Positions 21,561 through 45,589 of a stretch of 64,000 nt of DNA are shown here, piece by piece. A model generated the notes under the pieces. That model saw nothing but the letters and a program-made list of their open reading frames with translations, ran no database searches and had not been told where the DNA came from. Each line of letters opens with the position of its first letter. Position 1 is the stretch's first letter. A program made the position numbers and the translations under genes. Source of the DNA: Natronomonas marina (GTDB lineage: Archaea > Halobacteriota > Halobacteria > Halobacteriales > Haloarculaceae); contig NZ_CP101154.1 in assembly GCF_024298905.1 (NCBI RefSeq), positions 3,250,932 through 3,314,931 on the forward strand, read 5' to 3'.

Positions 21561-21888
21561 CTCGAACAGAGAAGACAACGAGCGTCACGCCCACGATCGT
21601 GACCAGCACGCCCACGAGCGCGACGGCTAGACCGGCGGTCTCGACAGCGTAACCGGCAATCAGGACACCGAGGACGGCGGCTATGATGCCGAATCCGTAC
21701 GTCCATTCCAGCGAGCGTGCGCCGAGCACCGCCGAGGCTACGACTCCCAGCAACGCTACGGAGACCCCTATCCAGTACAGCAGTGTAATCGAGGTGACGA
21801 GTACGACGATGATACCGAGGACGGCGATTCCGACGCCGAGCGCCCCGGCGCGGATGGTCGCGATTTCACCCTCTGTAAGCTCACTCAT
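21538..21888 (-). CDS. Small four-helix membrane protein coupled to the giant protein
   Basis: 116 residues: a short polar N-terminus (MSELTEGEIATIR) and four hydrophobic segments (about 14-36, 41-56, 65-83 and 88-109). The ATG at 21888 lies inside the last codons of the giant gene and is preceded by the Shine-Dalgarno-like GGAGGTGATG, so the two genes are translationally coupled. No family recognised. Tight coupling suggests a role in anchoring or handling the giant protein, or simple co-expression. Confidence 0.85.
   Translation of the reverse strand: MSELTEGEIATIRAGALGVGIAVLGIIVVLVTSITLLYWIGVSVALLGVVASAVLGARSLEWTYGFGIIAAVLGVLIAGYAVETAGLAVALVGVLVTIVGVTLVVFSVRGTGPQQE

Positions 21889-45589: not shown

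Follow-up and report, generated by a model that had tools for sequence, protein, structure and literature searches.

A giant, predicted membrane-anchored protein of thrombospondin type 3-like repeats and its gene neighborhood in Natronomonas marina

The stretch of the Natronomonas marina genome analyzed here (contig NZ_CP101154.1, positions 3,250,932 to 3,314,931; 64,000 nucleotides, below called the window) carries on its minus strand an open reading frame of 7,902 codons (positions 21881-45589), whose product, here referred to as the giant, contains hundreds of DxDxDG motifs and is predicted to fold locally like thrombospondin type 3 (TSP3) repeats. We propose, with a probability of roughly 0.6, that the locus encodes a surface stalk that is stiffened by Ca2+, controlled by a two-component system and held by a dedicated pair of anchor and partner. 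An original prediction, made from the letters of the window, had claimed a single intact frame encoding a membrane-anchored, TSP3-like protein with hundreds of motifs; the frame was indeed found to be open up to its terminal stop, and our analysis supports this architecture. The same prediction had treated the giant as a singular case, a view that must be abandoned, since we found relatives of 4,262 to 5,594 residues; at 7,902 residues the giant is the longest of the family members found.

Each of the other five frames of the same stretch contains 35 to 279 stops. The protein has a calculated mass of 796 kDa and a calculated isoelectric point (pI) of 4.05, with Asp accounting for 31.9% and Gly for 17.2% of residues, and with 2,924 acidic residues against 158 basic ones. 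Only two cysteines (residues 7845 and 7858) are present, both within the anchor and none in the array. Because the longest exact DNA repeat is 201 bp and the genome (99.98% complete) is assembled in 2 contigs, with the window lying on one of 3.85 Mb, a collapsed or inflated array appears unlikely, as judged from the assembly. A tRNA-Gly call (ARAGORN) at 27810-27889 (+), antisense within the repeat array, was taken as a probable false positive. The parts of the giant, in order from its N terminus, are given below; pN and pS denote proportions of nonsynonymous and synonymous differences, AF2 denotes AlphaFold2, and pLDDT denotes the predicted local distance difference test score.

45488..45589 (-): signal-like segment, residues 1-34 (hydrophobic windows 1-18; relatives begin likewise)
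38510..45487 (-): collinear N-terminal part of the array, ~residues 35-2360 (identity, pN/pS, near-constant-offset best matches)
22523..38509 (-): length-variable TSP3-like array, ~residues 2361-7689, 28-residue units nested in higher-order units of ~230 residues (autocorrelation, 148 28-residue units throughout the array, AF2 model of a segment)
22424..22522 (-): linker of Ser, Thr, Pro and acidic residues, residues 7690-7722 (sequence)
22070..22423 (-): predicted Ig-like beta-sandwich domain, residues 7723-7840 (AF2 strands, pLDDT ~90; four sequons)
21944..22057 (-): C-x12-CWYWW anchor and transmembrane helix, residues 7845-7882 (sequence, relatives, AF2)
21884..21943 (-): short acidic tail, residues 7883-7902, ending GDE (relatives end similarly, DDxGGExDE)

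The repeats are far denser than composition alone would produce. The count of DxDxDG motifs proposed in the original prediction gave 623 in the giant, whereas shuffling the residues of the array 50 times gave 45.6 +/- 7.2; 458 of the motifs are non-overlapping, and 467 full 12-residue loops could be fitted. The base unit comprises 28 residues with the consensus DTDSDGDGIPDSTEGTGDTDGDGTPNYL, and across 148 units its positions 1, 3, 5, 7, 11, 14, 18, 20 and 22 (Asp or Glu) show little or no variation, although this constancy is partly set by the search pattern itself. Autocorrelation of the array peaks at 28, 56 and 230 residues, with further higher-order periods at ~202 and ~146. Copies of 252 residues that align without gaps share 75-81% identity with a reference copy. 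At the DNA level, the units differ mainly at synonymous sites (pS 0.60, pN 0.19). The putative Ca2+-ligand residues are conserved from unit to unit, and the Dx[DN]xDG motif is a Ca2+ binder in many unrelated contexts, thrombospondin included (PMC3123361). We thus consider it very probable, from the residues at these positions, that the loops of the giant bind Ca2+.

Structure prediction was another check that had been suggested. For a 252-residue array segment, with an input alignment of 15 more copies from the giant and one from each of two relatives, AF2 returned a confident model (mean pLDDT 90.3) in which short helices and loops recur regularly. Its best Foldseek matches in the PDB were TSP3 structures, namely, COMP (3fby; E value, 1.4e-5), TSP1 (2rhp; 8.5e-5) and TSP2 (1yo8; 1.8e-4), with values spanning 1.4e-5 to 2e-3 when 1ux6 is included. 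VIA-align gave Z scores of 3.0-3.1 against TSP3 structures, with a large root-mean-square deviation. The Pfam profile TSP3_bac (PF18884) was matched at 44 and 35.5 bits, above its cut-off of 25, and the vertebrate-type TSP_3 profile (PF02412) reached only 19 bits against the same cut-off. Disulfides between repeats, as in vertebrate TSP3, are not available to the giant, both of its cysteines being in the anchor. In the model, then, the array folds locally like TSP3 repeats.

The two ends of the protein are consistent with a surface location. The proposed Sec signal corresponds to a hydrophobic, signal-like N terminus (with a GTG as the probable start codon) that ends in AVAA followed by TDSDGDG, and we infer export from it. 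At the other end, the Thr/Pro linker exists but is short (~7690-7722), and the adjoining domain, previously described as CARDB-like with N-glycosylation sites, indeed carries 4 of the 6 sequons of the giant and is modeled by AF2 as an Ig-like sandwich; it does not match Pfam CARDB, the best match being DUF11 with an E value of 0.07, below the cut-off. In the model of the C-terminal 207 residues, the sandwich is followed by one long helix (~7852-7882), which covers the second hydrophobic stretch of the giant (~7854-7875) and, together with the C-x12-CWYWW motif, agrees with the membrane anchor originally postulated. The acidic tail is presumably cytoplasmic. No NCBIfam match to a PGF-CTERM-type sorting signal was obtained in the last 400 residues.

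A search for homologues, also suggested earlier, recovered giants with the same plan of signal, array and anchor. These include a 5,594-residue open frame on plasmid pHsi540 of Haloarcula sinaiiensis (in RefSeq, WP_004966362.1 at 264909-281564, "choice-of-anchor D domain-containing protein"), a 4,274-residue protein on a Salinibaculum litoreum / Halostella pelagica plasmid, a 4,262-residue protein with 274 DxDxDG motifs in genome G364, and a fragment at a contig end in G306. All of them end in C-x12-CWYWW and a transmembrane helix, and the 13-residue step between the two cysteines is identical in the three full-length relatives. The same anchor is borne by giants in which DxDxDG motifs are few or absent (G355, 3,484 residues; G099, 3,110 residues), so that it occurs with differing ectodomains in several haloarchaeal families. 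Any match to the anchor was found in 9 of 392 genomes of the order, the strong ones being the anchored giants identified here; matches to the CWYWW DNA pattern in G032 and G123 lie in short frames and were dismissed as chance. Three genomes of the same genus (G124, G127 and G125) encode smaller TSP3-rich proteins that have CARDB/Ig-like domains, end in different membrane tails and form a parallel set lacking CWYWW.

Comparison of the relatives suggests a fixed N-terminal part followed by an array of variable length. From the signal to residue ~2,000-2,350, the giant is collinear with its Salinibaculum and G364 counterparts (77% identity over ~2,400 aligned residues), with offsets staying within ~25 residues and pN/pS of 0.25-0.26; unique best ungapped matches back this collinearity as far as residue ~1,940, with weak support up to 2,360. 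Between Salinibaculum and G364 this part is 93% identical over 2,450 residues without an indel (pN/pS, 0.14), and with the H. sinaiiensis giant collinearity extends as far as residue ~1,200. The rest of the array measures ~5,300 residues in the giant versus ~1,800 in Salinibaculum. Given the pN/pS of 0.25 in the collinear part, the gene is under purifying selection. High identity across families (f1, f7) and plasmid locations further lead us to infer horizontal transfer of the locus. The Salinibaculum litoreum (G141 C2) and Halostella pelagica (G178 C3) records, although from different families, contain the same giant locus on plasmids of 316,107 and 316,071 bp, which reflects either a recent transfer or a sample mix-up.

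Three further genes belong to the conserved neighborhood of the giant.

21538..21888 (-): small membrane partner, 116 residues, ~four hydrophobic helices (sequence; homologues at other giant loci)
45769..47553 (+): divergent membrane histidine kinase, 594 residues, with HisKA_7TM, PAS, HisKA and HATPase_c (Pfam)
47564..48583 (-): fusion of an HxlR-type helix-turn-helix and a response-regulator receiver, 339 residues (Pfam)

The partner's ATG begins at 21888, inside the giant's stop codon, and overlaps the last codons of the giant (8 bp in all). Partner homologues occupy the same position in Salinibaculum/Halostella, G364, G306, G355 and H. sinaiiensis. In a profile search of 332 genomes, strong partner matches (E below 1e-34) were obtained in 5 (G000, G178, G306, G355 and G364), all of which carry anchored giants (rough Fisher p, 2e-10). 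The middle loop of the G364 partner (L102, ~3660-4103 (-)) contains an insertion of two TSP3-like repeats with DxDxDG, as in the array of the giant. A partner-like match in G332 was partial, with no giant nearby, and an apparent anchor-partner fusion in G103 and G110 was discarded as evidence of interaction, its extra helices having no match to the partner profile. Kinase and regulator orthologues lie beside the giant in G141, G178 and G364 in the same order and orientation, the G364 kinase being split by a contig end. Kinase orthologues with E values of ~1e-152 to 1e-172 were confined to these three giant-bearing genomes, compared to best values of 1e-46 to 1e-68 elsewhere; the regulators there are 62-63% identical to that of N. 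marina, with E values of ~1e-113 versus ~1e-25 elsewhere in a 13-genome test. A second HisKA_7TM-PAS histidine kinase in the window (593-2290 (+)) is 35% identical to the giant-linked kinase and is its next-best match in the genome.

We envisage that the giant is exported by the Sec pathway and that the C-x12-CWYWW helix keeps it in the membrane with its N terminus outside. Ca2+, and perhaps Mg2+ too, would fold it into a very long, stiff and strongly acidic TSP3-like rod, in which the collinear N-terminal ~2,000-2,350 residues would form a constrained distal part and the membrane-proximal array a stem, lengthened or shortened between species through gain or loss of repeat units and raised off the membrane by the Ig-like domain. 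If ~270 28-residue units rise by 1.5-3 nm each, such a stalk would span ~0.4-0.8 micrometer, a range that depends on this assumption. The translationally coupled four-helix protein may act as a dedicated partner that receives, stabilizes or signals via the anchor, and the 7TM-PAS kinase and HxlR-receiver regulator might turn the giant on upon a sensed surface or envelope condition. Most likely, the stalk would serve to attach cells over a long range or to bring about cell-cell/biofilm contact, and ion binding would be what gives it its structure. More tentatively, and with rather less than even confidence, the locus may be viewed as a mobile "giant stalk" module that combines a fixed ~2,000-residue distal part, a species-tuned stem, a new anchor needing its partner, and its own kinase and regulator, the anchor-partner pair serving as a reusable platform for various giant ectodomains.

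Several observations weigh against this proposal. Comparison of the whole chain with TSP3 structures gives low TM-scores (0.12-0.18), so that the local fold alone is matched, as expected if long curved chains do not superpose. Co-occurrence of partner and giant was counted by genome, and since some of these loci are related by transfer, the p value overstates their independence; furthermore, the partner was not detected in G099, which has the anchored 3,110-residue giant. As to regulation, a wider search showed that G076 and G301 also encode the regulator (54-55% identity), there next to other genes. These are not hidden giant loci, and the pair is thus not exclusive to giants, because no CWYWW giant adjoins the regulator there. 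In H. sinaiiensis the upstream kinase is another one and is separated from the giant by a transposase, and the G355 kinase match covers the C-terminal half only. HisKA_7TM kinases are moreover common in haloarchaea.

Among other explanations, the one we would take most seriously, although it seems considerably less probable than an anchored stalk, is that the giant forms a polyanionic coat or ion store, a hydrated layer rich in divalent cations that protects against desiccation, phages or predators without any specific ligand, much as proposed for halomucin. The excess of acidic residues and the pI given above, together with up to ~450 predicted ion-binding loops, would suit such a role, but bulk charge does not need an N-terminal part that stays collinear over ~2,000 residues nearly without indels, the giant is membrane anchored rather than released, and it has only 6 N-glycosylation sequons. 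We regard as improbable a contact or competition device, comparable to SPEARE or contact-dependent giants, in which the stalk would let an effector or a channel function reach other cells. Giant size, mobile spread on plasmids and across families, the dedicated partner gene, and the unrelated, maybe enzymatic or toxin-like C termini of other large TSP3 proteins of the family are all compatible with this idea. However, no enzymatic, toxin or pore domain was found in the giant, its C terminus is the anchor and its repeats begin at residue 35 from the N terminus, and no immunity-like gene was recognized.

The least credible explanation, to which we assign hardly any weight, is a nonfunctional repeat expansion or assembly artifact, in which acidic repeats slipped and the frame stayed open by chance. 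GC-rich repeats of this kind do tend to stay open, and Tandem Repeats Finder (TRF) reported many arrays; nevertheless, exact repeats do not exceed 201 bp, pN/pS is 0.14-0.26 for orthologue pairs and 0.31 for pairs of units, and anchor, partner and gene order are conserved. We favor the regulated, anchored stalk over these explanations.

The window contains other genes of note. Two TnpB-type RNA-guided nucleases are encoded at 19996-21264 (-), just downstream of the partner gene, and at 5688-6944 (-), with matches to sot0042 (omega-RNA-like) at 19958-20117 (-) (100 bits, above the cut-off) and 2483-2676 (-) (47 bits, below it). Two DDE transposase genes (4434-5279 (-) and 12965-13807 (-)) are alike in their first 40 residues, and a fusion of an AN1 zinc finger and a rhomboid protease (14328-15398 (+)) adjoins an endonuclease V gene. 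Secretion/pilus-type genes lie at 53605-61636 (+); they encode a full-length DUF7286 protein (947 bits) and a T2SSE-like ATPase, and T2SSF is matched weakly.

TSP3 repeats as a module and giant haloarchaeal surface proteins as a class are already known. Literature searches returned no papers on haloarchaeal TSP3 giants, and in the literature searched we found no description of the scale, the cysteine-free array, the fixed-plus-variable design, the anchor or the four-gene association. To our knowledge, the giant is among the largest calcium-repeat proteins in archaea, and its TSP3-type array is the longest found in this analysis. The signature anchor, co-occurring partner and regulator pair offer handles that a lone giant would lack; the natural length series from ~4,260 to 7,900 residues bears on how a cell controls stalk length at its surface, and the giants bear on the behavior of very acidic calcium proteins in near-saturated brine.

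Like TSP3 of TSP1, TSP2 and COMP (Pfam TSP_3/TSP3_bac PF18884), the repeats of the giant contain DxDxDG, have a hydrophobic residue following the Gly, and close the 12-residue loop with an acidic one. Unlike thrombospondins, which have about a dozen repeats, the giant has ~458 non-overlapping motifs in 28-residue units and a cysteine-free array, hence no disulfides; a thrombospondin C-terminal domain was not found in it. Similarity to the staphylococcal Bap B/BSP domain (7c7r, 7c7u) is limited to local loops over 29-37 Foldseek columns, with E above 1. A 2024 survey of huge proteins listed Laminin_G_3 and Ig-like domains as the content typical of archaea, without naming TSP3 (PMC11573180). By description only, the giant can also be compared with the SPEARE giants of nanohaloarchaea, likewise giant archaeal surface proteins (9,409 residues; host-contact protein of an ectosymbiont [PMC11001535]), and with halomucin of Haloquadratum walsbyi, a reportedly secreted and mucin-like protein of 9,159 residues (PMC4378361) that is also giant, haloarchaeal and outside the cell, as the giant is predicted to be, whereas the latter is of the TSP3 type and anchored. 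The closest counterparts of the N. marina giant are the H. sinaiiensis and Salinibaculum/Halostella giants, which share the plan of signal, array (with 278-293 DxDxDG motifs) and anchor, the C-x12-CWYWW motif and a partner gene overlapping the stop codon, but differ in length (4,274-5,594 residues) and in their membrane-proximal module, which is choice-of-anchor D in Haloarcula, with none evident in Salinibaculum.
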